Below, one piece after another: positions 20,201 to 36,710 of a stretch of DNA of 38,319 nt (its first letter is position 1; each line of letters starts with the position of its first letter). Source of the stretch: Candidatus Polarisedimenticolia bacterium (lineage in GTDB: Bacteria; Acidobacteriota; Polarisedimenticolia; Gp22-AA2; AA152); the NCBI GenBank assembly GCA_035764505.1, contig DASTZC010000042.1:1-38319 (forward strand), given 5' to 3'. A program made the translations under genes and the position numbers. A model generated the notes under the pieces. That model was not told the origin of the DNA. It saw only the letters and a list, made by a program, of their open reading frames with translations, and did not search any database.

Positions 20201-22450
20201 GCTCTCACCTTCCGCGGGAGCGGCGGCCGCGTCTTCCGTGCCGGCCGTGCCTTCCTCGCCGGTCGCGCCTTCCGTGCCGGCCGCAAGGTTCGGCGCCTGC
20301 GCGCCATCCGCGAGCTGGCCGGTCCCGGACGCCGTGACGCCCTCTCCTGAGGGCTTCTGCTCCTGCCCCGAACCGGGGCTGGAGGGCATCTCGCGGACGA
20401 GCCATAGCGGATGCGGCTCGGTCTCGTCGAAGTGCCCCTGCGCATCGTAGGCGCGCAGCACGAACTTCAGCTCGCGCACCGGTGCCGGAAGCGCTCCGGC
20501 CGGAGGCTGCCACTCCGCCCTGCCCGTCTCGTCGACCGGCAGCGTCGCGAGCGGCGCGGCCAGCAGCGACTGGCTCTTTTCGAAGATGCGGACCTCCGCG
20601 CGCTTGATGAAGCTCGCGTAGTTGTCGTACATCTCGAAGGCCACGGAGGATGCCGAGTTGCCGTCGGGGCTCACCGACACGGCGACCGGATGCGCGGCGA
20701 CCGCCAGGCGTACTCTGGTCTCCAGGTTGTCGAAGTGGAACTGGATCTTCGCCTGGTCCAGCGCCACGTCGGTGCAGCGCTGGATGTCCTCGGAGCTCAG
20801 GCCCACGTCATCGATCGGCTTGCCGTCGACGGTGATGCGCATGACGTTGAGGTCGTACGGGCTTTGAGGCTTGACCTCCCGGGTGATGCGCGTGATGTCC
20901 ACGCCGTCATAGCTCTCGAGCGGCGCCGGCTCGTCGTAGACGGCCTGCACCCGCACGAACGACCTGTCTCCCTGGATGAAGCCGGCGTTCACGACATCGT
21001 CCGACTGCACGAACCCCCGTCCCTCGACCTCGGAAACCCTGCCCGTCAGCAGCGGATCCTGCATGAGGCTCTTCATGGCGCGCAGCGCCCGGGCGGCGGA
21101 GAGACCGATGTCATCCTTGTAGACCGAGGCGGTGCGCCGGTCGAGGCGCTCGTTCTTGGTGTAGCCGATGAAGCGCAGCCGCGCGTGGGTCCGATCCTTG
21201 ATGTCCTCCAGCGCGCGGTGCAGGGCCGCCGCGTAGCCATCGGGGATGATCGGCTGGCCGTTATCCAGCGCGATCTCCGCGAGAGGTCCCCAGGGAGGAT
21301 CGTAGACCTTCGTCACCATCTCCAATCCGCTCTCGCTGGGGCAGAGCTGCGGGCCGTCCGGCAGCTCCTGGAGCGGATCGTCGTACCAGAACTCCACCTC
21401 GACGCGGCGGTTCAAGGAGCGTCCCTGGACCGTCTCGTTGGAGGCGACCGGCTGCGAGGCGCCATGGCCGTCGCTGTCGATTCCGGAGGTCGGCAGCTTC
21501 AGGGCTTCCTTGATGGCCAGCGCCACGCGACGGGCCCGGGCCTTGGAGAGCCCCAGCGCGTCGCCATAGATGCGCTCGTCGCGCGCGCTCAGCGGCGCGT
21601 CGTCGGTGTAGCCGATGAACTTCACCGTCAGGCTCTGCTTGTCGTGCAGGTTGGCGAGCGCCTGGCGGACCTGCTGGATGAAGGCGTCGGAGACCGGCGT
21701 GGTGTCGTCCTCGTAGCGCAGCGGCACGATCAGGTTGCGCACGCGGGCCCGACGCTCCGCCCCTTCCTGGTAGCGCATCTTGCACACCGTCTGCATGCGG
21801 CAGACCTTGATGCGCTTGATGTCGTCGGAAACCACGACTTCCTCTTCCCGGGGGACCTGCTTGACCTCGTCGTACCAGACTTCGACCTCGACCCTGCGGT
21901 TGAGGGCCCGGCCTTCTTCGGTCGCATTCGAGGCGACCGGCATCGTTTCGCCGACCCACTCGTAGGTGATGGCCTCGGGCGGCAGGCCGAGGGTCTTCTT
22001 GAAATACTCGGCCACCTCGCCGGCGCGCTCGCGCGACAACCCCATGTTGTCCCCGAACTTCCTCGTCAGCTCGGGCGACAGTCGCTGCGAGTCGGCGTGC
22101 CCGACGAAGTGGACTCGGACGTTCTTGCGGTAGCGCATGCTTGCCAGGATCTTGTTGAGGCGGTCGACGTAATCTGACGGGATCTTCGCGACGCCCGACT
22201 CGAAATGGATCGGGGGCACCACGTTTCGCAGCTTGACGGTCTCGAGCTTGTCGCCCATGACCTGCCGCGTCTCCAGCTTGTCGCCCCGCTCCGCGTCGGG
22301 CGGCTCCTGCGACCATTGCTGGGGCTTCTGGTCGGGAGAGAGGTGCTTCTCGGCCTGCTCACCCGGCTGCGACTCCTCGACCTGGGCGACGCCGAGGGAG
22401 GCGGTCATCGCCAGGGCGGCCAACAGGGGCAGGAAGCGGCGCTTATTCAT
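17231..22450 (-). CDS. outer-membrane protein with three OmpA-like domains and a C-terminal beta-barrel
   Basis: This is a 1739-residue protein with a signal peptide (1-22). OmpA-like domain 1 (about 78-194: FVGHADSQ, DNMGLSRERA, LNRRVEVEVWYDE) and domain 2 (about 238-357: FIGYTDDA, GLSKARARRV, LNRRVEVEFWYDD) are canonical. Domain 3 (about 393-505) keeps FIGYT and GLSAARA but has lost the NRRVE motif, so it may not bind peptidoglycan. Next come a domain of unknown type (about 510-690), an acidic Ala/Pro/Gly linker (about 690-765), an Ig-like module (about 770-860), and roughly 870 residues of alternating strands with FYVGM-, NLYLNYLLEN- and VRVGYSQES-like segments, read as a large beta-barrel. 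The final residue is Met rather than Phe or Trp. Its ATG overlaps the upstream stop as ATGAATAA, suggesting translational coupling. It is a likely wall-anchored outer-membrane channel or scaffold working with the DUF11 protein. Confidence 0.85.
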   Translation of the reverse strand: MNKRRFLPLLAALAMTASLGVAQVEESQPGEQAEKHLSPDQKPQQWSQEPPDAERGDKLETRQVMGDKLETVKLRNVVPPIHFESGVAKIPSDYVDRLNKILASMRYRKNVRVHFVGHADSQRLSPELTRKFGDNMGLSRERAGEVAEYFKKTLGLPPEAITYEWVGETMPVASNATEEGRALNRRVEVEVWYDEVKQVPREEEVVVSDDIKRIKVCRMQTVCKMRYQEGAERRARVRNLIVPLRYEDDTTPVSDAFIQQVRQALANLHDKQSLTVKFIGYTDDAPLSARDERIYGDALGLSKARARRVALAIKEALKLPTSGIDSDGHGASQPVASNETVQGRSLNRRVEVEFWYDDPLQELPDGPQLCPSESGLEMVTKVYDPPWGPLAEIALDNGQPIIPDGYAAALHRALEDIKDRTHARLRFIGYTKNERLDRRTASVYKDDIGLSAARALRAMKSLMQDPLLTGRVSEVEGRGFVQSDDVVNAGFIQGDRSFVRVQAVYDEPAPLESYDGVDITRITREVKPQSPYDLNVMRITVDGKPIDDVGLSSEDIQRCTDVALDQAKIQFHFDNLETRVRLAVAAHPVAVSVSPDGNSASSVAFEMYDNYASFIKRAEVRIFEKSQSLLAAPLATLPVDETGRAEWQPPAGALPAPVRELKFVLRAYDAQGHFDETEPHPLWLVREMPSSPGSGQEQKPSGEGVTASGTGQLADGAQAPNLAAGTEGATGEEGTAGTEDAAAAPAEGESKAPYTPAPAIPSELLAAYGESDLFRHEIPLNGGTVRVQGGGIPAGHTVWVAGRQVPVDPQGNFVAEEILPTGAHTVEVAVLDDAGNGSVYLRDLEFKKTDLFYVGMADLTYSTHSSSGPVDQLEGNNTQQPFDSNFDGRLAFFVNGKLNENWKLTASADTREGPVEDMFSNFLDKSPDALFRRFDPDYHYPTFGDDGSVEEMAPTLGKFYVKASRGESFGMWGNFKIDYLGNELAQVDRGLYGANGHYASRATTSFGEHKASADGFAAEPGTMPSFEEFRGTGGSLYYLHHQDLLTGSERLRIEIRDKASQIVMGVVNLRPGIDYDIDYLQGRVLLSEPLSSTADDNLLVRTSGLSGDEAFLVARYEFTPGFGDLDLMAAGGQGHYWFGDHVRFGVTANRNEEGDVDNNVGGADLTLRKSTDTWLKVQAGRSEGLVSSTLRSEDGGFGFTAADPLSFTDAEANAYRADASLGFHDGKGRLTLYGQSRDAGYSAQGQSTLKDTDQYGGTFKMAMGSHVTLAAKGDQTTEDLGLEHRALELDMGFKLTDRWSLSTGVRNDRREDNSPLVPLTQEQGERTDAVAQLGFDPGTSWRAYGFVQDTLASDGDREDNGRFGVGGSYSLTKRFKLDGEVSDGDLGAGARLGTTYLVSERTNLYLNYLLENDRTDAGVPMRQGTLVTGVKQRFADASSVYLEERYHDAGTMTGLTHATGVNLVANERWNFGASAEYGTLIDALTSAETERKAAGVRVGYSQESVQLTSGVEYRRDNTEQLDLTTNDRTTWLFRNAFKFQINPDWRLVGKLNHSFSDSSLGDFFNGGYTEGVLGYAYRPVNNDRLNALVKLTYFYNFPTAGQVGADDTASEFIQKSCIAAVDMNYDLTARWGLGGKYAYRVGSVSIDRVNPTFFDNNAQLGILRLDFRFLENWEGMAEARVLDLSDVGQRKSGALGAIYYYVGKHLKMGAGYNFTDFSDDLTDLGYDHQGAFFNIVGSM

Positions 22451-25400
22451 GGCCTTCTCCCGCCGCTGCGCGGCTCAGCTTCGACTGCTTGGGTGGCGCG
22501 CCCTTGCGCCAGAAGATCTCGGGCTCGATGAGGAGCGCGTAGCTTGTCGCGTCCCAGGCCGCCATCACCTGCTGCTTGACCGCGTTCAGGCGGCGGTCGA
22601 CGAGCCCCGCGTCCTCGTTGTCGGCGATGTAGGAGAGGCGCAGCACCGCGGGTGACTTGCGCAGCTCGGCGAGCAGCAGATCGAGGCGCGGCTTCCACTG
22701 CTCGCGAAGCGCGGTCGCGTTGTGCTCGAACGCGGCATCCGACAGGTCGATGGCGACGACGCGGTGGATCGAGGCGCCGAAATTCATGCGCAGGACCTTG
22801 CCGCGCGTGGCCCGCTTGATCTGCAGCGCGTCGGTCGACATGCGGAAGCCGCTGGGCAGCGACCGCTCGTCGAGCTTCAGGACGAAGTTGCTGCCGCGGC
22901 TCTCGTGCGGCACCAGGGCGCAGGTGATGTGGTAGCGGCCGAACTCATCGGTGGTCGCCAGCAGGCCGCGGTCGGTGGCCAGCCGCACGCCGGCCAGGCC
23001 GCCTTCGCCCTGGTCCTGCACGCCGTTGCGGTTGGCGTCGTTGAACACCTTGCCGGTGATGTCGGTGCAGTCGAAGGTCGGATCGGGAATGATGCGCACG
23101 GTGGCGGTGGCCACGCCGGAGATCGGTGCCAGCGTGATGCTGCTGATCAGCTGGGCGCGGTTGGTGAACTCGCCTTCGCTCACTCCACCGCCCACCGTCA
23201 GCAGCAGCTTCACGGTGCGCGACTGCAGCCCCGCGAAGGCAAGCCCGCTCCAGGTGAGCTGCAGCCCCGCGGCCGTCGGCTCGGTCGGCACGTCGTCCAC
23301 CACCGCGGAGCCCTTCACGTAGCTGAAGCCGGCCGGGAAGGTGTCGACGATGCTCACGTCGGTGAGGCCCGTGCCCGCCAGGTTGCTCACGGTGATCACG
23401 TAGGGGACCAGCTGGCCGCGAGTGACGTTGATGAAGGGCGAGCTCTTGGAGATGGCGATGGTGCCGACGATCACCGGATCGAGCGGGATGTGGTTGTCGA
23501 AGATCTGGCTCGTGCCGGGCATCTGAGTGCCGGTCAGCATCAAGTGGAGCTGATAGACGGTGCCCGGGGTGCGCGGTGGAACCGACGGCGCCGGCTGGAA
23601 CTCCGAAGGCTGCATCTCGCAGAATTGCGCCGTGGCCGGAATGGCGTCGCCCGGGCAGACCGGCACCGAGAACGCCGCCGTCGTGGCGTCCGATGCCGGC
23701 GGGATGATTGCCGAGATGCCCGCGACGTAGGCCGGCCCCGCAGGCGGCGCCACATTGATGAGGTAGTCGCCGCCGGTCGGGCAGGCCGGGTCGTTGAAGT
23801 TGAGGCTGAACTTGTAATAGCCGTACGGGAGGGTGACCTGGCCTTGCTGGGCCGGGTCGTCGAAGCAGGTCGTCGGCAGAGGGTTGCCGCTGCCATTCGT
23901 CAGGGTCAGGGTCGCCCCGCCGATCGGGACACGGGCCATCGAGTTGTAGACGATACCGTTGGGGTCGATCGGCAGGTTCAGGTTCTGGAGATTGGCACCG
24001 GGCGACACGATGATGCCGCTGATCAGCTGCATCCCGTTGGTGAACACCGAGGAGGCCCGTCCGAGCAGTGCGGTGTTGGGTCCCGCGCCGGGCGCCCGGA
24101 ACCGGATCTCGTAGGGGGCGCCGACCACGTTGTTCGGCACGACATTCTGGATGTCGTAGTCGCCGTTCACGTCGGTCACGCCGGAGAAGAGCAGGGGACC
24201 GCCCTGGGTCAGCTCCACCGTCCAGCCGGCCAGCCTGTGCTCGCTCGCGTCCCGTACGTCATCGAAGTCGGCGTCATGCCAGACCGACCCGTGCAGCGCG
24301 GCGATGCCGGGGATGCCGCCGACCACGATCGAGACGCTGGCGCTGGCCGTCTGGGTCGGCGTGTCCCACGTGACCGTGCCGGTGTTGGTGACCGTGGTTC
24401 CCTGCGCCAGGGTGGGGTCGAGCGTGGCGCGGAAGCGCAGGATCACCGTCCCGCCGGGCGCCAGTGGACCGTACGCGGCTCCGTAGTCACCGGTGATCGT
24501 CGGGCTGGCGAAGCTCACTCCCGTGGTCGAGCCGTTCATCGTCGCGGAGCCGTTGACGTAGGTGAGCTGACCCGCGGGGAGGCTGTCGGTGACCACGACG
24601 CCGATCGCCGGCACCGCGGCGATGTTGGTGACCGTGACGACGTAATCGAGCTGGGAGCCGGGGAGCGCCGGCCCGCCGCCCACCACCGAAACCTGCTTGG
24701 TGATGGACAGCTCCTGGACCCCGCCCACCACCACGATGGTCGGCTGGTTGCCGTTGCCGGGGTTGCCATCGGCATCGGTCGGCAGATCGGGCAGCTCGAC
24801 CGTGTCGACGATCGCCTGGTTGACGATCAGCGTGCCGGCCGGCGTGCCGGAGTTGACGCTCAGGTCGTACTGCAGGGTGGCCGAAGCGCCGGGCGAGATG
24901 ACGCCGGCGCCCGCACCGGGCAACGGCGGCGTGAGATCCGACGAGCTGATGTCGATGCCCGAGGCGAGTGGGGCCACACCGCCGTCCGGCTGTCCGACCG
25001 GCAGGCCGTTGAGCGTCGTCGTATTTGCCTGGTAGGTCGTATTCGCGGGGACCGGATCGCTCAAGACCACGCCGGTCGCCGGAACTCCTCCAGAGTTCTG
25101 GATGGTGATGGTGTAGCGCAGCACGTCGCCCGGGTCGACGACGCCCGGCGTGCGCAGGTCCACGAGCAGCACGGCCGTCTTCTGCGCGTAGACCAATGGG
25201 CTGTTGCCGACCACGTCGCGCGTCGGGTCGTTGGGAATCGCGGTGTCCGGGTCGTCGGACGGCTGGTCCACGACCAGGTTCGCGATGGCGGAGACGAAGC
25301 CCTGGTTCGAGATGATCGTGCCGTTCAGGACGTTGGGATCGACGACCACGTCGAAGGTGATGACCGCCGGCGCCGACCCCCTGGGCATCGAGCCGGGCGT

Positions 25401-27578
25401 CGCCGTGGAAGGCGAGTTGATCAGCATGCCGCCGACGAGCGGGGAGGTGCCTCCAACGTCGGCGACCGGCACACCGTTCAGCCGTGTGCTGCCCGGAACG
25501 TAGGTGGTGTTCACCGGGATGGTGTCGCGCAGCGTCACGTTGACGGCGTCGTCGTTGCCGGTGTTCTGGACCGTGATGGTGTAGCGCAGCGTCTCGCCGG
25601 CCAGCAGCACGTTCGGGTCGCCGGTCAGGTCGGTGGAAATTTTCTGCACCAGGAAGGCGGCGGCCGAGATGATCCGGATGCGCGTCGGGTCCTCGTCGCC
25701 GACGACCAGCGGATCGGCGATGCCGTTGACATTGGGATCGTCGCTGGGCTGGATGAGCGAGTTGTTGGGGCGTCGCGACACCGCCTGGTCGCTGACGATG
25801 GTGTTGTTGGTCAGCGTCGAGGCAAGCGTGATGTCGAACTGGACAATCAGCTGGCTGTTGGCCGGCAGGCTCAGATTGCGGATGTCGACGAGGCCCGTCC
25901 CCTTGCTGCCGCCGTTGGCGTCGGTGTTGCTGGTGTCGGCACCGGCGGGCACCGAGACCAGCACCAGCGTGCCCGGCACGAAGGCCGCCGGGTTGTTCAG
26001 CGCGTCCAGGTCGTCGAAGATCCGGAAGTTCGGAAGCGCCTGATCGGTGGTGCGGAAGCGCAGGGTGTAGCGCAGCACGTCGCCCGGTGAGGCGGTGGTG
26101 GCCGGATTCACGCCGCTGGTGAGATCCGCCACGGTCTTCTCGAAGAAGAAGCCCGAGAGCACCACGTTCACGGTCCAGGCGTCCTCGTGGTCGAGGAAGC
26201 CGGGTGTGCCGTTGGTCAGGTTGCGATCGAATTCGACGCGGCTGGCATTGCCGTTGTCGTCGTTGAACCACTGGATGGCGCCGGCGACGTTGGTGAGGGC
26301 GACGCCGTTCTGGGTGTTGGCATCGAGCTCCGCCGTGTAGCGCACGATCAGCCGCTCGCCGGGGCCGATGCGCGCCGCGGCCGTCATCATCGTCAGGTCG
26401 AGCCGGCAGTTGGGCGCGCCGCTCCACGTCAGCAGATAGTCGATGCCCGGGTTGAGGGGGCCCTTGCCGGGGACCGGGGTGGTGCCATTAGCGGCGAAGA
26501 CCTGGGCGCTCTGAATGATGGGCGCCAGATCACACATGCCGCCCGTCGGACCGTCCGGCAGCCGATCGCGGAGATGGACGTCCCAGGCATCGGTCAGCCC
26601 GGCGTTCCGGACGTCCAGCGTGAAGTTTCCCGTCTGCCCCAGGTTCATCGTGGCCGGGCCGGTCTTGTCCATCTCCAGGACCGGCGCCGCGATGGTCAGG
26701 GGCGGCGAGATGCCGTTCTCGCCCGGCAGCGGCTCGTAGAAGACGCCCGCGATGAGCCGGCCAAAGTCCCACCGGGCGGTGTTGAAGAACGAGTTGCCCA
26801 CCACGTTCGCCGGCACGTCGTTGAGGACGAGGGTGAGCTCGATGGCGAACTGCCGCCCGGCGGTGACGATGGGGATGTTGTCCCAGGTCAGGAAGCCGCC
26901 GACGTTGGTGAAGGTGTGCGGAACGGGGCTGAGGTCGTCCAGCCAGTAAATGTTGTAGCTGACGAAGCTGACGCTCGCGTTCGCGATGGCGTTGAGGTCG
27001 TCCGTGACCGTGATGCTGTGCAGGTCGTTCACCGATCCCTGGGTGTTGATGACGGTGCCGCTGGCCGGATCGAAGAGGACCGGGATGACCATCTTGTAGG
27101 TGAAGGGGACGCCGATGGCGGCCGTGGTCTGGGTCTGCGGGAGGATCTGCTTGTCGATCTTCTCGACCGGGATCAGGAGGCTCAGGCAATTGGGGTTGAG
27201 GGTGGTGGCCGAGCCGTTGACGAGCCAGATCTTGTTCCCCTGAACGGCGAGATTGCACGACATGTTGCCGGTCATATAAACGTTGTCGAGAATGAGGAGC
27301 GTGCTTCCGGGGAGGCTTCCGAACCAGCTGATGTTCGAGGTCAGCGGGTTGGCCGCCGTGTAGTTCCGAATCGTGCAGGGGCCGTCGATGTTGATCTGAG
27401 AGGGAGGGACGGGATAGTTGACGAAGCCGTCGACGATGCCGCCGGCGTCGCCGACGCAATCGATCGCCTGCGCCCGCGCCTCGGTGGACGCGGCCGCCAG
27501 CAATACGAAGAGCAGCGGCAGCAGGACGAACGCCTTCCTGCCGATCCTCTTCACTCCGATGGGAAATCGAACCTTCAT
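22443..27578 (-). CDS. giant DUF11/SdrD-B-like surface protein
   Basis: This 1711-residue exported protein has a signal peptide (KAFVLLPLLFVLLAAAS, cleavage near ARAQA). I count at least four clear DUF11 modules (each with a Tyr-x-(I/V)-T-V-x-N core, then D(T/S/P)-(I/L/V/F)P, and a G(S/T)-x-(T/A/V)-(L/M/V)-N-G end) plus two divergent ones. Two SdrD-B-like domains carry calcium-type loops: GSVWHDADFDDVRDASE and GKVFNDANRNGVQDQGE. The last about 130 residues (IDLSDAAFEHNATAL, LRLSYIADNEDAGLVDRRL) look like a degenerate OmpA-like fold. There is no LPXTG or obvious barrel, so it probably sits on the surface or in the periplasm bound to its partner. The ATG follows GAGGG by 5 nt, and this ribosome site is buried in a hairpin behind a c-di-GMP riboswitch. 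A GTG at 27611 is in frame but lies in the hairpin loop without a ribosome site. Confidence 0.88.
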   Translation of the reverse strand: MKVRFPIGVKRIGRKAFVLLPLLFVLLAAASTEARAQAIDCVGDAGGIVDGFVNYPVPPSQINIDGPCTIRNYTAANPLTSNISWFGSLPGSTLLILDNVYMTGNMSCNLAVQGNKIWLVNGSATTLNPNCLSLLIPVEKIDKQILPQTQTTAAIGVPFTYKMVIPVLFDPASGTVINTQGSVNDLHSITVTDDLNAIANASVSFVSYNIYWLDDLSPVPHTFTNVGGFLTWDNIPIVTAGRQFAIELTLVLNDVPANVVGNSFFNTARWDFGRLIAGVFYEPLPGENGISPPLTIAAPVLEMDKTGPATMNLGQTGNFTLDVRNAGLTDAWDVHLRDRLPDGPTGGMCDLAPIIQSAQVFAANGTTPVPGKGPLNPGIDYLLTWSGAPNCRLDLTMMTAAARIGPGERLIVRYTAELDANTQNGVALTNVAGAIQWFNDDNGNASRVEFDRNLTNGTPGFLDHEDAWTVNVVLSGFFFEKTVADLTSGVNPATTASPGDVLRYTLRFRTTDQALPNFRIFDDLDALNNPAAFVPGTLVLVSVPAGADTSNTDANGGSKGTGLVDIRNLSLPANSQLIVQFDITLASTLTNNTIVSDQAVSRRPNNSLIQPSDDPNVNGIADPLVVGDEDPTRIRIISAAAFLVQKISTDLTGDPNVLLAGETLRYTITVQNTGNDDAVNVTLRDTIPVNTTYVPGSTRLNGVPVADVGGTSPLVGGMLINSPSTATPGSMPRGSAPAVITFDVVVDPNVLNGTIISNQGFVSAIANLVVDQPSDDPDTAIPNDPTRDVVGNSPLVYAQKTAVLLVDLRTPGVVDPGDVLRYTITIQNSGGVPATGVVLSDPVPANTTYQANTTTLNGLPVGQPDGGVAPLASGIDISSSDLTPPLPGAGAGVISPGASATLQYDLSVNSGTPAGTLIVNQAIVDTVELPDLPTDADGNPGNGNQPTIVVVGGVQELSITKQVSVVGGGPALPGSQLDYVVTVTNIAAVPAIGVVVTDSLPAGQLTYVNGSATMNGSTTGVSFASPTITGDYGAAYGPLAPGGTVILRFRATLDPTLAQGTTVTNTGTVTWDTPTQTASASVSIVVGGIPGIAALHGSVWHDADFDDVRDASEHRLAGWTVELTQGGPLLFSGVTDVNGDYDIQNVVPNNVVGAPYEIRFRAPGAGPNTALLGRASSVFTNGMQLISGIIVSPGANLQNLNLPIDPNGIVYNSMARVPIGGATLTLTNGSGNPLPTTCFDDPAQQGQVTLPYGYYKFSLNFNDPACPTGGDYLINVAPPAGPAYVAGISAIIPPASDATTAAFSVPVCPGDAIPATAQFCEMQPSEFQPAPSVPPRTPGTVYQLHLMLTGTQMPGTSQIFDNHIPLDPVIVGTIAISKSSPFINVTRGQLVPYVITVSNLAGTGLTDVSIVDTFPAGFSYVKGSAVVDDVPTEPTAAGLQLTWSGLAFAGLQSRTVKLLLTVGGGVSEGEFTNRAQLISSITLAPISGVATATVRIIPDPTFDCTDITGKVFNDANRNGVQDQGEGGLAGVRLATDRGLLATTDEFGRYHITCALVPHESRGSNFVLKLDERSLPSGFRMSTDALQIKRATRGKVLRMNFGASIHRVVAIDLSDAAFEHNATALREQWKPRLDLLLAELRKSPAVLRLSYIADNEDAGLVDRRLNAVKQQVMAAWDATSYALLIEPEIFWRKGAPPKQSKLSRAAAGEGHE

Positions 27579-27583
27579 CGTGG

Positions 27584-27624
27584 CCCTCGACCGCTCCCGG
27601 TAAGTCGTCACCGTCGAGGGACCG
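27584..27624 (-). promoter_or_regulatory. ribosome-site-sequestering hairpin (expression platform of the riboswitch)
   Basis: On the minus strand CCCTCGAC (27620 to 27613) pairs perfectly with GTCGAGGG (27591 to 27584), which includes the Shine-Dalgarno GAGGG of the DUF11 gene; the loop is 21 nt. The overlapping CGGTCCC (27624 to 27618) can instead pair with GGGACCG (27647 to 27641) inside the aptamer. The two pairings exclude each other, so ligand binding could decide whether the ribosome site is open. If the aptamer keeps its own GGGACCG when c-di-GMP is bound, the anti-ribosome-site strand is free and the switch would be OFF with ligand; this direction is inference. Confidence 0.65.
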
Positions 27625-27632
27625 AGGCCATG

Positions 27633-27727
27633 GATTCTGGCGGTCCCGCCGTCGTGGGGCCCCCCGGGCCCTTTAGACCGGTGACTTTGCGTCGCCGCCT
27701 TTCAGCGGCTTTGCCTTTGTCAAAATC
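27633..27727 (-). promoter_or_regulatory. cyclic-di-GMP riboswitch, GEMM-I class
   Basis: Read on the minus strand, the GEMM-I landmarks occur in order. There is AGGCAAA, then a 6-bp stem with a GAAA tetraloop (GCCGCT-GAAA-GGCGGC, tetraloop at 27703-27700), then GACGCAAAG (27693-27685), CACCGG, and TCTAAA as the tetraloop-receptor side. A GC-rich second arm with GGCGGGACCG closes the core. The whole is closed by a terminal helix GATTTTG (27727-27721) with CAGAATC (27639-27633), 7 bp with one U-G pair. That helix lies outside the consensus bases and so supports the call independently. It sits 55 nt before the DUF11 gene on the same strand. Known GEMM-I RNAs bind c-di-GMP and control motility, adhesion and envelope genes. 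Confidence 0.9.
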
Positions 27728-27789: not shown

Positions 27790-28827
27790 TCACTCCGCCG
27801 GCAGGAAATCGATCGGGTACGAGATCGTCAGGGCCTGCACGCCCTCCTTGGCGCCGAAGTTGATCGTCTTCGTGATGCCCACCACCTGATCGGCGAGCTC
27901 CGGCGCGTTCATGTCGGAGGACTGCAGCTTGCACATCGACACGCTGCCGTCCGGCTCGATGGTCAATCGCAGCACCATCTGCCCCTTCAAGGTGGGATCG
28001 TTGCGCAGCGCCCGGTTGTAGAGACGGTAGAACTGCGCCTTGTAGCGATCGAAGACGATCTGGATCTCCTCGTCGGTGCGGGAGGGCCCGGGCCCACCGT
28101 GCGCCAGCGGCCGATCCCCTCCGCCGATTCCGGCGATTGGACTGACAACCTGTCCGCCACCTCCGCCTCCGGCGCCTCCGCCCCCGCCGCCTGGGCCACC
28201 GCCCTTGCCACCACCGCCCCCGCCGCCGCCTCCGACGCTGCGGCTCAGCGCGGCGACATTGATGCCGCCGCTGGAGCCTGGCGTGCCGGTCGTGAGCAGG
28301 GTGCGTGACGACGGATTGCCTTTCTCATCGGCCTCGCCCAGGCGCGCATCGGCGCCGAGCTTCGGCGTGATCTTGTCCTTGGCCAGACTCGCGAACTGAT
28401 CCTTGAGCGCCAGGATACCGGTCTTCCCCACTCTTTCCCGGGCCGTCTCCGTCACCTGGGGCGGACCCACAGGGCCCGGCGGCAGCTCTGGATTGCCCGG
28501 GGCCTTGGGGCCGGGGGGCGCCTTCGGTATCGGCTTCTCCGCGGGAGGAGGTCCGGGCGGCTTGGGTCCGACGCCCGGGCCCAACGGCAGAGGAGCTTTC
28601 GCCACCGGCGCGGGGACCGCCGCCGGCTCGGGACGGTAGAAGGAAACATCCACTTCTCTCTTCTGCGCCCGCAACGCCTCCGCCGGCACGAGCAGGAGCA
28701 GGATCACCGCGAGGGTATGGACCGCGAAGCTCGTCAGCATGGAGCGCGCGGTAGGTCCCCCGGACAGGCCGGATGCGCTCGCAACGGCCTGTACCGTCTT
28801 GACTCCTTCGGTCGGCAGCGTGCTCAT
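27790..28827 (-). CDS. TonB-like energy transducer with AgmX/PglI C-terminal domain (GltG/GltJ-like)
   Basis: This is a 345-residue inner-membrane protein with one transmembrane helix (about 30-50). It continues with a Pro-rich periplasmic stretch (about 66-125), a region ending in SRTLLTT, and a Gly-rich run of about 30 residues (199-225). The conserved C-terminal domain (about 252-345) contains IQIVFDRYKAQFYRLYNRALR, KGQMVLRLTIEPDGSV and the ELADQVV segment. This C-terminus is the AgmX/PglI type, found in GltJ and GltG of the Myxococcus gliding and sporulation machines; it is TonB-like in fold and spans from the motor to outer-envelope partners. The ATG overlaps the second ExbD stop as ATGA. 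It is the last gene of the tight operon, followed by the riboswitch. A role in classic TonB nutrient uptake is less likely because no TonB-dependent receptor is present. Confidence 0.9.
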   Translation of the reverse strand: MSTLPTEGVKTVQAVASASGLSGGPTARSMLTSFAVHTLAVILLLLVPAEALRAQKREVDVSFYRPEPAAVPAPVAKAPLPLGPGVGPKPPGPPPAEKPIPKAPPGPKAPGNPELPPGPVGPPQVTETARERVGKTGILALKDQFASLAKDKITPKLGADARLGEADEKGNPSSRTLLTTGTPGSSGGINVAALSRSVGGGGGGGGGKGGGPGGGGGGAGGGGGGQVVSPIAGIGGGDRPLAHGGPGPSRTDEEIQIVFDRYKAQFYRLYNRALRNDPTLKGQMVLRLTIEPDGSVSMCKLQSSDMNAPELADQVVGITKTINFGAKEGVQALTISYPIDFLPAE

Positions 28828-29309
28828 GGCGTGGCCGCCTCGGTTTCGGCCGTAACGACTTCGATGGTCAGATCCTCGACTCCGGTCTTCGCCAGGTCGA
28901 CGATGCGCAGGACGCCTTCATAGTTCAGGCGATCGTCGGCCGCGAGGAACAGCACCCGCTTCTCGGGGGGCCGCTTCCCCAGGGCCACCGCCACGTTGGC
29001 CGGCAGCTCGGCCACGGGGATCTCGCGCTCGCCCAGCCCGACTTTGCAGTCCTTGGGGAGACCGTTGCCTTCCGGCTGATCGAGGATGCGGCAGGCCTGC
29101 GGTCCGACGGTCAGGACCACCTGCGTATCGACGGTCTCCACGAGAGCGGGATCCGACGTCAGCCGGGGAACGTCGACCTCGTAGCCCTGCATGAGCAGCG
29201 GGACGACCACCATGAAAATGATCAGCAGCACCAGCACCACGTCGATGAGCGGCGTGATGTTGATTTCGGACTGCAGGTCGGAGCCTGAACCGCCTCCGGT
29301 GACTTGCAT
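28824..29309 (-). CDS. ExbD/TolR-family proton-channel protein, second copy
   Basis: This is a 161-residue protein with one transmembrane helix (about 21-38) and a periplasmic domain. INITPLIDVVLVLLIIFMVV carries Asp23, the conserved proton-path residue of ExbD/TolR/AglQ/AglS. The periplasmic part has an insertion with two cysteines (QACRIL and KDCKV, about residues 72-87) that the first ExbD lacks and that could form a disulfide. The start follows GGAGG and lies 3 nt after the preceding stop; the end overlaps the TonB-like start as ATGA. Two distinct ExbD/TolR proteins beside one TolQ protein is also the layout of the AglRQS motor. Confidence 0.93.
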   Translation of the reverse strand: MQVTGGGSGSDLQSEINITPLIDVVLVLLIIFMVVVPLLMQGYEVDVPRLTSDPALVETVDTQVVLTVGPQACRILDQPEGNGLPKDCKVGLGEREIPVAELPANVAVALGKRPPEKRVLFLAADDRLNYEGVLRIVDLAKTGVEDLTIEVVTAETEAATP

Positions 29310-29312
29310 GAC

Positions 29313-29735
29313 CTAGCCTCCTTCTCCTTCGCGCGCCCGCTTGGCGATCAGCGCCACCCCGTGGAAGCCGGCCTCCTCGACCTCGTGCATGGCCTGCCGG
29401 ACCTCCCCGAAGCGCAGCCGCGCGTCTCCCTGGATCACGACTTTCTTGTTCGGCTCGGCCGCAGCCACGACGCGAAGCCCCTCGCCGAAGCGCTCGGGAG
29501 AGACCTGCTCGTCGTCGATCCACAGCCCGCCGTGCTCGTCGATCGTCACCACGAGCCGCTCCGACGTGTCGCTTCCCTGCTCCACCGGCTTCGGTGTTTC
29601 CGGGAGGTCGACCTCCGGTCCGGGCCGCATCTGCGGCGTCACCACCATGAAAATGATCAGCAGCACGAGCACCACGTCGACAAGGGGCGTGACGTTGATG
29701 GCCGACTGCACTTTTCCCGGTTCACCTGGCTGCAT
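29313..29735 (-). CDS. ExbD/TolR-family proton-channel protein, first copy
   Basis: This is a 140-residue protein with one transmembrane helix (about 19-33). INVTPLVDVVLVLLIIFMVV includes Asp20, expected to carry protons between the ExbB/TolQ helices. The periplasmic domain is standard: EVDLPETPKP, VVTIDEHGGLWIDDE and KKVVIQGDARLRF. The start chosen lies 14 nt inside the end of the ExbB gene and has GAGGG before it; a further upstream ATG at 29801 would add 22 residues that are antisense-like and basic. Tight packing with ExbB and the second ExbD argues for one complex. Confidence 0.93.
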   Translation of the reverse strand: MQPGEPGKVQSAINVTPLVDVVLVLLIIFMVVTPQMRPGPEVDLPETPKPVEQGSDTSERLVVTIDEHGGLWIDDEQVSPERFGEGLRVVAAAEPNKKVVIQGDARLRFGEVRQAMHEVEEAGFHGVALIAKRAREGEGG

Positions 29736-30450
29736 GGGCCGCCCTCGGCATCTGAGGCGCTCGCATCTGGTTTTCGGTCCGACGCGCTTCGAGCAGACCA
29801 CCCAGCTTGAACAGATGGTTTACCAGCTGGGTCGAGGCCCGGTTCATCTCGACCTGGAACTGCTCGAGCTTGCCGGTGAAGTGGTTGAAGGCGACGACCG
29901 CCGGGATGGCGACGAAGATGCCCAGGGCCGTCGCCACCAGCGCCTCGGAAATACCGCCCGAGACCGCCGCCATGCCGCCCGACCCCGTGGCCGCGATGCC
30001 GCGGAACGAGCTGATGATGCCCAGCACGGTGCCGAACAGTCCGATGAAGGGCGCCGTGGAGCCGATGGTGGCCAGGTGGCCCAGTCCCCGCTTCATCTGG
30101 ATCATGGTCTCGGCCCGGGAGTCCTCGAGCGTGCTCGTGACCAGCTCGAGCGTGTCGTCGCGATCGCCGTCGTTGTTCCCCACGCCGTACTCGACGATGC
30201 CCGCCGAGACCACGTTGGCCACGTGAGAATTCGGGTGCTTGCGCGCGGCGTCCAAAACGTCCTGCAGCTCTCCTCCGTGGAGATACTTGGCGAAGGCGGG
30301 CTTGAAGGACTTCGACTGCTTGATGGCCGCGTTGAACCGGCGCTGCTTGTCCACCATCACCCCGACCGAATAGACCGAGAGCAGGGCGAGGCAGATCATC
30401 ACCGACATACCGAAGGTGCCTACGTTGCCGATTAGCTCCGCAAAACTCAT
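29722..30450 (-). CDS. MotA/TolQ/ExbB-family proton-channel protein
   Basis: This is a 242-residue inner-membrane protein with three helices: about 13-32, then the conserved pair GHLATIGSTAPFIGLFGTVL (about 122-145) and ISEALVATALGIFVAIPAVV (about 165-186). This is the full TolQ/ExbB/AglR domain. With ExbD-type partners it forms the pentamer-dimer channel that turns proton flow into mechanical work in the periplasm. The ATG overlaps the preceding stop as ATGA. The open frame extends upstream but is antisense-like there. Placement between the secreted and TPR genes and the AgmX/PglI-type transducer suggests a motor dedicated to this envelope complex rather than to general Tol-Pal or TonB function. 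Confidence 0.95.
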   Translation of the reverse strand: MSFAELIGNVGTFGMSVMICLALLSVYSVGVMVDKQRRFNAAIKQSKSFKPAFAKYLHGGELQDVLDAARKHPNSHVANVVSAGIVEYGVGNNDGDRDDTLELVTSTLEDSRAETMIQMKRGLGHLATIGSTAPFIGLFGTVLGIISSFRGIAATGSGGMAAVSGGISEALVATALGIFVAIPAVVAFNHFTGKLEQFQVEMNRASTQLVNHLFKLGGLLEARRTENQMRAPQMPRAAHAAR

Positions 30451-30980: not shown

Positions 30981-31687
30981 GGCTTCCCCCCTTTGCCCTT
31001 CCCCTTGCGGTTCTGAAGGTCGGCGATCCACTTGGCGACCTCGGTGTCCCCCGGAACCAGACCCTGATAGGTCGAGTAGTGTTGCAGGGCGCACTCGGCG
31101 TCCCCGAGGTAAAGGTCACACAGGATGGCGAGGTTGCGGTGCGCGTAATGAAAGTCGGGAAATTCCGCCAGCGCCGCCTCGTAGCTGGCGCGCGCCTTGG
31201 CGAATTCCCCCTTGCGCCGCTGCACCAGTCCGAGCTCGTTGAGGGCGACGGGGTGCTTGGGATTCAGCTCCAGCGCCTGCTGCAGGCTGGATTCGGCCTT
31301 GTCGAGGTCTCCGGTCTGCGCGTAGGCCATGCCCAGATCGATGTGCGCCGCCGTCGCTTCGGGAGCGCGCTCGGTCACCTTGAGCAGCAGCGGGATGGCC
31401 TGGTCGTAACGCTCCTCCTTGAGCTTGCGCACCGCCGCCTCGTAGTCGGAGCGCGCCTCGCCGGGGATGCTCGCGGCCTGCGTGATCGTGAATCCGCCCG
31501 GGTCCCGTGCCACCGTCGCCTGCTGCACGGTCGGGTGCGCTCGCGCCGTGACCGGCTCGACCGGCGCCGCAGCCTTCTGGTGCGGTTGCGAGGCGCAGCC
31601 AATCACCAGCACCGGTGCAAGGGCCAACGCCGGAAGCAGAATGGCCCGGCCCGGCATTCTCACGGCGAGCTTGCAGCCATCTCTCAT
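30977..31687 (-). CDS. small TPR lipoprotein (GltE-like)
   Basis: This is a 236-residue protein. A hydrophobic segment ends in the lipobox VIGC (Cys31 from the chosen start), predicting a lipoprotein; no Asp follows the Cys, so outer-membrane sorting is likely. Residues about 70-220 hold tandem TPRs ([64 protein letters not shown]). TPR lipoproteins of this size act as assembly factors, as PilF does for type IV pili and GltE/AglT for the gliding machine. The ATG at 31687 overlaps the previous stop as ATGA; an internal ATG at 31657 would give a more usual signal length. The C-terminus is Lys-rich. Confidence 0.9.
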
Positions 31688-34600
31688 CGCTTCCCCCGGT
31701 GCTTCGGCGGCTTCGGCGCAGACTCGGCGCCAGGCGTAGGCTCCGTCGCCGGGGCCGGCTCGGTCGTCGGGGCCGGCTCCGTCTGCGGCGCCTCGCTTCC
31801 AGGGGCCGGCGCGGGCGGTGGCGGCGGCAGGGGCGAGCGGTAGACATATCCCTCGAGCGTGTCGAGGAAGCCGCTGCTCGTCTCCTTCTTCGCGTAGCGT
31901 CCCGGCACCAGCTCGCCCAGCCTGCCCAGGCTCTTCTCGGTCCAGGCATTGAAGACGCCGGCCCGCAGCAATTCCAGGTTCTTCTGGTGGAACTCGATGG
32001 CCTTCTCCTCGAACGGGAAGGCTTCCTCGTCGAGGGCCTGCTCGTACTCCGCCAGGTCGGCGGCGCTCAGGTCCTTGGGGCGCTCGGAGTCGGCCAGTGA
32101 GCGGCTGAAATCGTAGTAGGTCTCGGCCATGTAATAGGTGGCGGCCGCCGTGACTTCGCCGATTTCGTAGCCGACCAGCGAATCCATGGCGTCGATCGCC
32201 GCGTCCATGCGCTTCTTCTTCTCCTTCAGGCTGGTCTCGAACGGCTGCACCAGCTTCACGGCGGTGAATTCCTTGTACTGGTCCTCCGCCAGGACGAGCG
32301 CCGATCGTCCGGCGATCGTCTTGGTCCTCGGGGTCCGCTCTTTGCCGGCGCCCGCGTCGATGCGCACGATCTCCTTCAGCTCCTGCCGGTACAGGGAGTC
32401 CTCGTGCGCCGCCTTGTGGATCTCGGCGATCTTGAAGCGGGTATCGAGGGCCGTCTCGATCGGGTGGGGGAACTCGTCGACGTACTTCTTGTAGACGCCC
32501 AGCGCGTGCTGCGAATCGTTGGACTGCCCGTACAGATCTCCGGCGACCAGCAGCGCCTCGCCGCGCACCGCCGGATCCTCCGAATCGGAGGCGAAGCGCT
32601 CGTACTCTCCGGCCGCTTTCGCGAGCTGGCCGCTTTCCTTGTAGGCGAAGGCGATCTGCTTGGTGGCCTCGTGGTTCAGCTCGTGCTTCGGGTAGTCGCT
32701 GCGGAACGCCTCGAGCACCTGCGCGGCCGCGGTGTAGTCCTTCAGCTGCATCAGGGCGGCACCGGCGTCGTACTCGGCGTTCGGGCGGATGGTGGACGTG
32801 GGGGCCGCCGTGCGAATTCTCAGGAAGTGATCGGCCGCGGCGCGATAGTCCTGAGCGTCCCTCGCCAGCTCGCCCTGCTTGTAGATCGAGGCGGCGAGGT
32901 TGTCGACGAGTCCGGCGCGTGACTTGTCGTCCTGCGGCGTGGCGGCCAGCACCTGGGTGTAAGCCTTCTCGGCCTGCGGGTAGTCGGCCAGCTCGAACGA
33001 GCCGTGCGCCACGACCACCCAGGCGTCGCGCCGGATGCCCGGCTCCGCGGCCGGATAAGTGTCGATCACCCGCTGCGCGGTGCTCACGGCGGTGCGGTAG
33101 TCCTTCATCTCGAACAGGTCGTCGGCTGCCGCTCCCAGGATTTCCGCGGCGTGCTCGTGCTGCGGGAAGGTGTCGGCGAACTTGAGGGAGCTCGCGACGG
33201 TCTGGGCCTTGACGGCCCCGCGCCGCTGCTCGTCCGCGACCTTGAGCTCCTCGCGGTAGGCGTAGACCGCCGCATAGCCCGCGGCGGCTGCCTGGGGATG
33301 CTCCGGATAGCCGTAGGCGGTGTGCTCGTACTGCTTCGCAGCCTCGTCGAAGTCCTTGTGCTCGAGGAGAAGGTCCGCGAGCTTGTAGTTGACCGGCGGC
33401 GTATCGGCCTCGGTGGGAAAGGACTCGAGGTAATCGCCGTACCAGCGGACCGCCTCGCGATAGTTCGCCTGCTTCTCATCCCCTTCCGGGGCCTTCTGAT
33501 ACTGCGCGTGATAGTGCGTCGCGAGGTCGTTGAGGTTCGTCTTCAGGTAAGCCACCACTTCCGGGGCTTCTTCCAGCTTGACGTGCTTCCAGTACTCGGC
33601 CTGCAGACCGTAGCGCTGCGCGAAATCGCGCTTCGCCTCGAGCACCAGCTTGGGGAAGCCGCCCTGCGTGAAGATCTCCACGACGCGCATGCTGAACCTG
33701 GGCGCGGCGCGGTGGAACGGATGGAGAGTGATGAAGGCATTGTAGGTCTTGGCCGCGTCGTCGTAGCGCAGCTTGGCCAGGTAGTGCTCTCCCAGATTGG
33801 CGTAGATGCGGTCTTCGTAGGGGCGGCTCTTGGATCCTGTGAAGTACTCCTGGACGGCCTCCGGCCCGCCGAGGTTGCTGAAGCTCAGGCTGATGACCCG
33901 GAAGGTGTCGGCGACGCGCCGGTCGTCCTCCTCCTCGTGCCTCTCGTCGAAGTTGAAGCCGATCGAGACTTTGTAATCGAGCAGCGCCAGGTACTTGTCG
34001 AGAGCCTCCTCGTAGAGGTCCTGCTTGTAGAAGGTCCAGCCGAGCTTGTAGAGGGCGAGCTCGTAATACTCGGAGTTGGTGCCCAGGCCTATGACGGCCG
34101 AATAGGCGTTCTCCGCGTCGCGGAACTTCCGGCGCGTGAAGAAGAACTCTCCCCTCCGGAACTGCACCTCGTCGATGTGCGTGGAGCCGGGGTTCGCCTT
34201 GATCAGGCGCTCCATGACCTCCATCGCCTCTTCGGTGCGACCGAGCTCGTCGTAGGCCCGTGCCATCTGATAGAGGACCTGGTCGCTGTTCTCGTAGCTC
34301 GGGTACTCGGTGAGCAGCTTCTGATAGAGAGCAATCGCCTCGAGAGGACCCTTGGGATCGGCCGCCAGGGGCAGGGCGCCGGCATCCGGCGCGCCGCCAC
34401 CGCTCTCCTGCGGCAGACCGCTCTCCGCCGTCGTGCGCTTCTCGAAGTCCTTGTCCGATTCACGGCCCGAGGCGCGCGCGACTTCCGCCGCCAGGTTGGG
34501 CATCTTCTTTCCCTTGGGCGCTTCCCCCGACTTCGGGGCGGCCATCTGTTTCGGCCTGCCATCGCCCGCCCGGATGCCGAACTGCTTCTCGAGCTGCAGG

Positions 34601-34830
34601 TCCGCCAGCCGCCGCATCGCCTCGGGAGTCATCGCCGTCTGCGGGGTCTCCTCGAGGAAGCGCCGGTAGGCTTCCATCGCCTGATCGAGCCCCTGCTCGA
34701 CGGTCGTCTCCTGGAGATCGGGACGCACGTCACGCAGCTCCGCCAGCGTCCCCGGCGTCCTCTGATGGTGCGAGGCGCAGCCGATGACGAGGGAGGGAGC
34801 GAGCAGGATCGGGATGAATGGTCGGCGCAT
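31684..34830 (-). CDS. large TPR lipoprotein (GltD-like)
   Basis: This is a 1048-residue protein. The signal ends in VIGC (Cys18), predicting a lipoprotein. After a variable segment (about 30-160) almost the whole chain to about 990 is TPR-like helices, seen in repeats such as [61 protein letters not shown] and [20 protein letters not shown]. The tail (about 1000-1048) is Pro/Ala/Glu-rich. Such proteins serve as large periplasmic scaffolds; in Myxococcus GltD (AgmU) has that role. The start shares one base with the preceding stop (TGATG), and the open frame upstream of it is antisense-like. It shares the lipobox motif (LVIGCAS) with the next lipoprotein. The specific partner is unknown. Confidence 0.9.
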
Positions 34831-36710
34831 CAGCGTGCCTCGGCCCCGTTCTGGACCCGGGTGGCCCGATCGTAGCTGTCGGCTACGGCGAAGCGCGCCT
34901 CGGTCTGCTGGACCAGGAGGCGGTCGCGACGGAGGTTGAGCTGGTTGACGGCGACGGTCTCGATCATGGCTCCCTGGCGGCTCATCGTGGTGTCGACGCG
35001 CTCCAGCGCGGCGGCCACGCGCTCGCGCAGCCGCTCGATCTGGGCGTCGTAGCCGACGTAGCTGTGCGTCGCCGCCTGGCGGGTCCGGACGAAGGCGTCG
35101 TACTGCCGGGTGAGCGTCTCGACGTGTGTGTCCAGCTCCTCGAGGTGCTTGTAGGCGGCGCTCAGCCGATCCTGGTACTCGGTCCGGAGCCGCCAGGTCA
35201 GCGTCCCGCGCAGGCGCGCGACACGCTCGTGCAGCGCCGCCGCCTGCGGCGTGTTCGAGCTGCCCAGCGCCTTCTCGATAGCCGTGAGGCGCTCGCCGGC
35301 GATGCGCTCCTCGGCGGTGGCCAGGTATTCCGGCCGCGGCACCGTCAGCATCGCGTGCAGGCGCTCGCCCAGGTGCTTTTTTTCCTCGAGGCGCAGGCGC
35401 ATGCGCGAGTCGACCTCGCGAAACTGGGCGTCGACCTCCGGCAGGAGGGGCTCGTAGTTCTGCTTGCGCAGGCGGATGAGATCCTCGAAGGCGTCGAGAC
35501 CCGTCTTCCAGGCCGTCAGCTTGGTACGCAGGTCCTCGAGATCGAGGTAGTTGTGCAGGGCGGTCTGGAAGTCGTGGGACGCCATCAGCTCCATGAGGTA
35601 ATAGGTTTCCGGCGCGCCGGGCAGAGTGCGCAGGCGGATCACCCAGTTCTCGTCCTCGCGGCTCTCTTCGCGGGTCAGCGCCTTGAGGAACTGACCGTCC
35701 TGGATGCTGGCGATCGAGGCGTCCACCTTCTCGATCTGGCCGGTGAAGACCTCGAGGGCGTGGCCGTACATCAGCGCGGCGCGCCCGTGCAGGTTCAGGC
35801 TGGCGTAGGCATGCGGGGCGGCGAGCAGGGCTTCCTGGACCGCGACGTCGGTCGGCTCGCGGTTCACCAGAATGGTCCACGGAACCAGCGCGCGGTCGTA
35901 GTGCTCGGCCGTGGCCTCGGCCCAGCCGGCCCGCAGCAGCGCCTGGTTCGAGAACGGCCCTTCGAGGTGCACGCGGTCCAGCGATTGCTTGGCCCGATCG
36001 AACTCGCCCGCCTCGAACAGCATGGTGCCGAGCACCAGGTTGGCCTTGTCATGGATCGCCCAATCGGCGGAATCGCGGGAGGGAAGCTGCCCTGCCTTGT
36101 CCAGCTGCTCGATCGCCTCCTTGGGCCGGCCGTCCTGCAGCAGCGCGATGCCGAGGTTGTAGGCGGAGAAGCCGGCCAGACTCTCGTCGCTGCGCATCTG
36201 CTTGAGGACCTTGACGGCCTCGCCGGGCTGCCCGGTCGCCATGTCGAGGTTGGCCCGCAGGAACTCGACGTCGTCCTTGATCTCCTCGGGCACCGTGCCC
36301 TGGATCCGCCCCAGCGCGTTCTGCGCGTCGTCGAGCTGGTCCTTCTGGAATTCGATGCGGGCCAGCCGGAAGGCGGCCTCGTTGCGCACCGACTCGTCGA
36401 CGGCGCCTTCCAGGACCGCCTTGATGGCCCGGCCGGCGCGATGGTGCATGCGGTAGTCGAGCTCGAAGTCGCCCACGGAGAACTCGGCGTCATTGACGTG
36501 GTAGTGGAGCGTGTCGAGCTTGGGCTCGTCCAGGCCATGGTACTGGGCGAGCTCGGTGTCGAGCCGCTCGATGGCTTCGAAGAACTGCCCCTGATAGGCG
36601 TGATACAGCGCCTCGCCGAAATAGAGATCCTTCAAGTCGGCGCCCACGGACGGACGGGCCACGAGCCCCAGGACCAGTCCGAATCCGATGAGCCGGCGTG
36701 GCGCGCGCAT
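34830..36710 (-). CDS. secreted TPR protein with C-terminal coiled coils
   Basis: This is a 626-residue protein with a signal peptide (LIGFGLVLGLVARPSVGA, about 1-24) and no lipobox, so it is soluble in the periplasm. TPR-like helices run from about 25 to 330 (LYFGEALYHAYQGQFFEAIE, AFRLARIEFQKDQLDDAQNAL, AYNLGIALLQDGRPKEAIEQL). From about 390 to 610 the sequence is helical and highly charged, probably coiled coil (EEKKHLGERLHAML, YKHLEELDTHVETLTRQYD). It starts 6 nt after the preceding stop and ends in a TGATG overlap with the large lipoprotein. I do not recognise a named family beyond TPR. Context points to a structural part of the same envelope complex. Confidence 0.88.
   Translation of the reverse strand: MRAPRRLIGFGLVLGLVARPSVGADLKDLYFGEALYHAYQGQFFEAIERLDTELAQYHGLDEPKLDTLHYHVNDAEFSVGDFELDYRMHHRAGRAIKAVLEGAVDESVRNEAAFRLARIEFQKDQLDDAQNALGRIQGTVPEEIKDDVEFLRANLDMATGQPGEAVKVLKQMRSDESLAGFSAYNLGIALLQDGRPKEAIEQLDKAGQLPSRDSADWAIHDKANLVLGTMLFEAGEFDRAKQSLDRVHLEGPFSNQALLRAGWAEATAEHYDRALVPWTILVNREPTDVAVQEALLAAPHAYASLNLHGRAALMYGHALEVFTGQIEKVDASIASIQDGQFLKALTREESREDENWVIRLRTLPGAPETYYLMELMASHDFQTALHNYLDLEDLRTKLTAWKTGLDAFEDLIRLRKQNYEPLLPEVDAQFREVDSRMRLRLEEKKHLGERLHAMLTVPRPEYLATAEERIAGERLTAIEKALGSSNTPQAAALHERVARLRGTLTWRLRTEYQDRLSAAYKHLEELDTHVETLTRQYDAFVRTRQAATHSYVGYDAQIERLRERVAAALERVDTTMSRQGAMIETVAVNQLNLRRDRLLVQQTEARFAVADSYDRATRVQNGAEAR

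Follow-up and report, generated by a model that had tools for sequence, protein, structure and literature searches.

What does a cyclic dinucleotide aptamer govern when it lies in the middle of a run of envelope genes, and would its ligand turn those genes on or off? The question arises on the minus strand of a 38,319-nt stretch of DNA (the window; contig C42) from a Candidatus Polarisedimenticolia bacterium, where the initial annotation had read the landmarks of a GEMM-I aptamer and had proposed a comparison with RF01051 in Infernal. With cmscan and Rfam, RF01051 (c-di-GMP-I, GEMM-I) matches at window positions 27725-27636 (minus strand) with 74.6 bits (E 5.2e-13; the gathering score is 35) and over the full length of the model (positions 1-87 of 87). 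It is the sole Rfam match at the gathering threshold across the whole 38-kb window, and a search of the whole host genome with RF01051 gives no other copy. The landmarks are all found, in order:

27636..27725, minus strand: c-di-GMP-I (GEMM-I) aptamer (RF01051, full length, single genomic copy)
27721..27727, minus strand: 5′ strand of the P1 closing helix, GATTTTG, pairing with 27633-27639
27710..27715, minus strand: GGCAAA, from sequence; the first G is the equivalent of Vc2 G20, the cyclic-dinucleotide selectivity position
27700..27703, minus strand: GAAA tetraloop of P2, from sequence; unchanged in 17 orthologues
27693-27685, minus strand: landmark GACGCAAAG, from sequence
27679..27685, minus strand: 5′ strand of P3, GTCACCG (element a), a perfect complement of leader CGGTGAC
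within P3, minus strand: CACCGG and CTAAA, from sequence
near 27650-27641, minus strand: landmark GGCGGGACCG, from sequence
27641..27647, minus strand: 3′ strand of P3, GGGACCG (element b), a perfect complement of leader CGGTCCC
27633..27639, minus strand: 3′ strand of P1, CAGAATC, pairing with 27721-27727

The P1 helix (7 bp, GATTTTG/CAGAATC, including one G-U pair), described earlier as drawn from non-consensus bases, is real: five of its seven pairs undergo two-sided changes in the 17 orthologues. Over P1, P2, and P3 of these aptamers, such changes occur at 15 pairs (36 cells in all), the covariation score is reached by none of 500 shuffles, and it drops to less than half when the structure is slid along the alignment. 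Relics of the element do exist, as in locus L106, where a 26.6-bit remnant lies upstream of a DUF11 gene. That the window copy is itself a decayed, non-functional relic is, however, hardly credible, with helices kept by compensatory changes and a score of 105.7 bits, among the best, in the family model (in whose training set it stands). Compared with RF01051, the full-length match, P1/P2/P3, the GAAA loop, and the selectivity G are the same; there is no essential difference in the aptamer, and only P1 and parts of P3 carry lineage-specific bases. The element is almost certainly of a known kind, a c-di-GMP-I riboswitch with predicted ligand binding.

The first G of GGCAAA is presumably equivalent to G20 of Vc2. 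That position is G in 17/17 class-A copies, as expected for the c-di-GMP type; it biases the choice among cyclic dinucleotides without acting as an absolute filter (PMC9262584). Members of the GEMM-I family in Geobacter recognize cGAMP, as far as the citation of Kellenberger 2015 in PMC9262584 goes, and a GEMM-Ib aptamer for 3′,3′-cGAMP could be imagined here too. It is very improbable, considering the invariant G of the class-A copies and the canonical GGDEF proteins of the host; the A at the G20 position by which GEMM-Ib is recognized is replaced by G in the window aptamer. The host genome has 13 GGDEF matches over the cut-off, which makes it likely that the cell has a c-di-GMP signal.

The aptamer lies in a minus-strand block that runs from 37.4 to 17.2 kb in the order small genes, TPR/YbgF-like, ExbB/TolQ, two ExbD/TolR, AgmX-like, aptamer, DUF11, and OmpA/barrel. 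Its main genes are:

31684..35880, minus strand: TPR/YbgF-like protein, 1398 aa (Pfam, NCBIfam), syntenic in G007 and G008
29722..30447, minus strand: ExbB/TolQ/MotA-type proton channel gene (PF01618, TIGR02796), with the start of MSFAELIG.. near 30447
28824-29309 and 29313-29801, minus strand: two ExbD/TolR genes (PF02472)
27790..28827, minus strand: upstream gene, TonB-like protein of 345 aa whose C-terminal domain is of AgmX/PglI type (NF033768, 58.4 bits, cut-off 40)
22443..27578, minus strand: DUF11/SdrD_B/isopeptide-domain surface protein, 1711 aa (Pfam, NCBIfam), the presumed regulated gene
17231..22450, minus strand: next gene, 1739 aa, OmpA domains at the N terminus followed by a long C-terminal part (Pfam OmpA, orthologues)

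The aptamer starts 65 nt past the stop codon of the AgmX-like gene and ends 57 nt before the ATG of the DUF11 gene. The first reading had placed it just before a 1711-residue surface protein, and the ORF from the ATG at 27578 indeed has 1711 codons; with G at the selectivity position and the DUF11/SdrD_B gene directly downstream, the adjacency of a c-di-GMP-type aptamer to a surface module holds as well. The acidobacterial origin then suspected is consistent with the data, since the nearest named relatives of the neighboring OmpA protein are Acidobacteriota MAGs. The OmpA gene overlaps the stop of the DUF11 gene, and the C-terminal part of its product appears to be outer-membrane barrel-like. 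On the plus strand, a gene for a 2201-aa S8 protease with a proprotein-convertase P domain, HYR, and CARDB (10569-17174) converges on the OmpA gene; its tetranucleotide composition is unusual.

The upstream genes recall the Agl-Glt gliding machinery of Myxococcus (AglRQS, GltG/GltJ), with which the block shares ExbB/TolQ, two ExbD/TolR, TPR proteins, and a TonB-like protein with the AgmX/PglI C-terminal domain. In the Glt tests, only this shared C-terminal domain (NF033768) passes; for GltG and GltJ the block reaches 42.7 and 31.9 bits, where the equivalog cut-offs are 650 and 450. To our knowledge, neither the DUF11 giant nor the OmpA/barrel giant belongs to the Glt proteins.

Between the end of P1 and the DUF11 ATG, the leader is 54 nt long in the window. 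It contains the following elements:

27618..27624, minus strand: CGGTCCC (b′), a perfect complement of P3 GGGACCG, also in the left arm of the RBS hairpin
27607..27613, minus strand: CGGTGAC (a′), a perfect complement of P3 GTCACCG (CACCG and its 5′ neighbors)
27584..27627, minus strand: RBS-occluding hairpin with arms CCTCGGTCCCTCGAC .. GTCGAGGG (fold; arm-swap permutation)
27588-27584, minus strand: Shine-Dalgarno GAGGG in the 3′ arm of the hairpin, 5 nt before the ATG

The hairpin is GC-rich and closes the leader. In ten leaders from Acidobacteriota, Myxococcota, and Peristeroidobacter, cognate arms pair better than swapped ones (p = 0.0007); in ten gammaproteobacterial leaders, arm-swapping gives no support for the RBS hairpin (p = 0.45). 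The CGGTCCC/GGGACCG duplex amounts to −14.2 kcal/mol. Leader complements to each P3 strand are longer than in shuffled leaders (0/300 for either strand), and the order a, b, b′, a′ lets both leader-P3 helices form together, nested, at the expense of P3. In locus L157, where the aptamer has GTTACC, the leader has GGTAAC in place of the usual GTCACC/GGTGAC pair.

From these elements we propose that the c-di-GMP-I riboswitch very probably controls the DUF11 and OmpA/barrel half of an ExbB/ExbD proton-driven envelope operon, and predict that it does so by repressing translation. On binding, c-di-GMP would stabilize the aptamer and keep both P3 strands paired; the leader would then be free to fold its hairpin over the ribosome-binding site, and translation would be repressed. 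At low c-di-GMP, CGGUCCC and CGGUGAC would pair with the two P3 strands, open the aptamer, and free the ribosome site. Cells would thus produce the surface module when c-di-GMP is low and less of it when c-di-GMP is high.

Two parts of this proposal can be weighed separately. As to the level, control of translation is judged likely. On the minus strand of the window, the leader region shows no sigma-70-like promoter and no intrinsic terminator; in the absence of such a promoter, transcription of the aptamer probably comes from the upstream operon. The aptamer could instead govern mid-operon termination or Rho access and so attenuate the last two genes, with Rho-dependent polarity at the aptamer as one possible form. 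Relatives do offer a precedent: in two Geobacteraceae loci (L136, L141), a clear terminator-like hairpin with a T run stands behind the tandem aptamers, in place of the RBS hairpin, and a degenerate copy in G004:C115 also precedes a terminator-like hairpin. On the window minus strand, however, no terminator-like site follows the aptamer, and the hairpin that does occur sits on the Shine-Dalgarno sequence without a U tract, so transcriptional control appears improbable. The degenerate copy (L052:3796-3885) lies 284 nt after a response-regulator/GGDEF-like gene, and the gene behind its hairpin has a weak partial P0003 match.

As to the sign, repression is favored over activation, with some reserve. 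In partition-function calculations on 17 leaders, enforcing the aptamer lowers RBS accessibility by a mean of 0.040, which supports repression by the ligand. Shuffled leaders give −0.014 (sd 0.018) against this +0.040, and 0/40 shuffles reach the real value, in a test for which several ways of viewing the leader were tried; since the leaders share ancestry, shuffle tests overstate independence. About half of the leaders show no effect at all, and in the window, where plain MFE folding alone shows no switching, it is small (0.24 free, 0.17 with the aptamer). Surface adhesin-like proteins are usually wanted at high c-di-GMP, and DUF11/SdrD_B proteins are adhesin-like, so that a switch by which c-di-GMP turns the DUF11 gene on, aptamer folding disrupting the RBS hairpin, would fit a biofilm adhesin. 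On the other hand, the leader segments compete with the aptamer, and among the eight leaders that shift by at least 0.02, accessibility is lower with the aptamer in seven; activation is accordingly rather unlikely. The aptamer family itself contains both ON and OFF switches (PMC9262584), which leaves room for either sign. Vc2 of Vibrio cholerae is a translational OFF switch (PMC9262584), and the window element resembles it in aptamer type, the presence of P1, the translational platform, and the OFF sign (both predicted for the window). The two differ in that Vc2 precedes a tfoX-like gene (PMC3971182) and switches around P1, whereas the window copy precedes a DUF11/OmpA envelope module and has leader elements complementary to P3.

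The pairing of aptamer and DUF11 gene is not confined to the window. The aptamer lies before the orthologous DUF11 gene in five further genomes of the phylum. G007 and G008, which belong to another family of the same order, carry the 20-kb block in collinear form, with sharp ends and the aptamer at the same place, and its main blocks are 74-80% identical in DNA. In G001 and G002 (same genus) and G003 (same family), the aptamer was not found, and no full-length relative of the OmpA protein either. The block (17231-37401) thus occurs in another family but was not seen in two genomes from the window's own genus, a distribution that points to transfer or repeated loss. We considered whether C42 is a foreign contig in the MAG; for the whole contig, tetranucleotide distances make this unlikely. 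Window 1-10 kb lies at 114 from the host genome and at 198 from the G007 cluster region, and for window 17-36 kb the distance to the G008 cluster (123) is smaller than that to the host (171). At the left end of the contig, the M48 gene has its closest relative in a same-family genome (68%). Horizontal transfer of the 20-kb block is possible.

One scan of GTDB genomes gives 189 relatives of the OmpA protein. In the best 80 of these 189, surveyed with a model trained on 18 order-level aptamers, the aptamer occurs upstream of the DUF11 gene in 16 loci (E < 1e-10). These include two Acidobacteriota loci confirmed by RF01051 (L099, L111), L103 (placed with Myxococcota), the culturable Peristeroidobacter agariperforans (L098), and ten loci placed among Gammaproteobacteria, Woeseiaceae in many cases. 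From the class to which the window belongs, the class-A aptamer model adds G128, G145, and G043. All class-A loci read have the DUF11 orthologue behind the aptamer, with its start 40-77 nt away in nearly all. The last two of the 16, the Geobacteraceae loci L136 and L141 (L141 from the culturable Geomonas edaphica), likewise have aptamers before an orthologous DUF11-OmpA pair, but of another Rfam subclass, RF03167 (c-di-GMP-I-GGC); unlike the window copy, these are tandem and have terminator-like hairpins behind them. In the half of the OmpA tree that includes the window, no aptamer could be detected at six loci whose DUF11 gene is complete (L086, L087, L100, L112, L117, L151), and therefore the module can work without it: the aptamer is common but dispensable. 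Clustering of these labels on the OmpA tree is uninformative, because many match-less loci in the window's half of the tree end before the aptamer position.

The same switch before the same gene in several phyla suggests that a poorly known cell-envelope machine may be under c-di-GMP control. The main interest lies in this conserved cross-phylum link between a known kind of switch and an uncharacterized envelope module with motor-type genes. DUF11/OmpA giant pairs are widespread (189 OmpA-protein relatives in the one scan) and often stand beside an ExbB/ExbD-type motor; we know of no function assigned to them. That the switch is kept in Acidobacteriota, Gammaproteobacteria, and Myxococcota (and, as the other subclass, in Geobacteraceae) suggests a machine tied to the motile/sessile decision, for whose use the riboswitch offers a simple reporter. 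In the open-licence literature searched, no paper reports the link between riboswitch and envelope module, which is weak evidence of absence. Cross-phylum conservation, the likely translational platform, and the aptamer-less module of some relatives go beyond the first reading of the sequence.

In Gammaproteobacteria, a palindrome of CRP type that matches 8-10 of the 10 consensus bases lies just upstream of the aptamer in 10/10 loci (L090, L093, L095, L097, L108, L113, L123, L146, L157, L163). It is centered 32-39 nt before the modeled aptamer start and is followed by a −10-like GATAGT/CATAGT. Site and hexamer before every gammaproteobacterial copy suggest that a class II CRP-family promoter is combined with the riboswitch. 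More tentatively, with the chances somewhat against it as a whole, the ExbB-ExbD-AgmX-DUF11-OmpA genes and the riboswitch may make up a conserved envelope cassette, shared in part by horizontal transfer, with built-in c-di-GMP control, nested leader-P3 pairing, and, in Gammaproteobacteria, a second promoter input at the CRP-type site.

Other GEMM-I aptamers occur in the window's order, in two further groups of which most members lie behind good sigma-54 −24/−12 elements. The second group (L054, L056, L058, L059, L061, L062, L063, L065, in G004, G005, G007, G008, G010, G011) has GCCAAA..GACGGAAA, in which the junction pair has covaried from G-C to C-G. Its members lie before secreted proteins, which are S8 subtilases where checked, and nearly always behind a near-perfect −24/−12 element whose GC is 12-16 nt before the aptamer. 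The third group (L053, L055, L057, L060, L064) also lies before secreted proteins, with laminin-G/Ig domains where checked, and has sigma-54-like elements in several cases; in G005:C215, two of its aptamers occur within 500 bases. In other families of the phylum, the GEMM-I aptamers of L179 and L182 (G225, G064) precede multihaem cytochrome-like genes, reminiscent of Geobacter.
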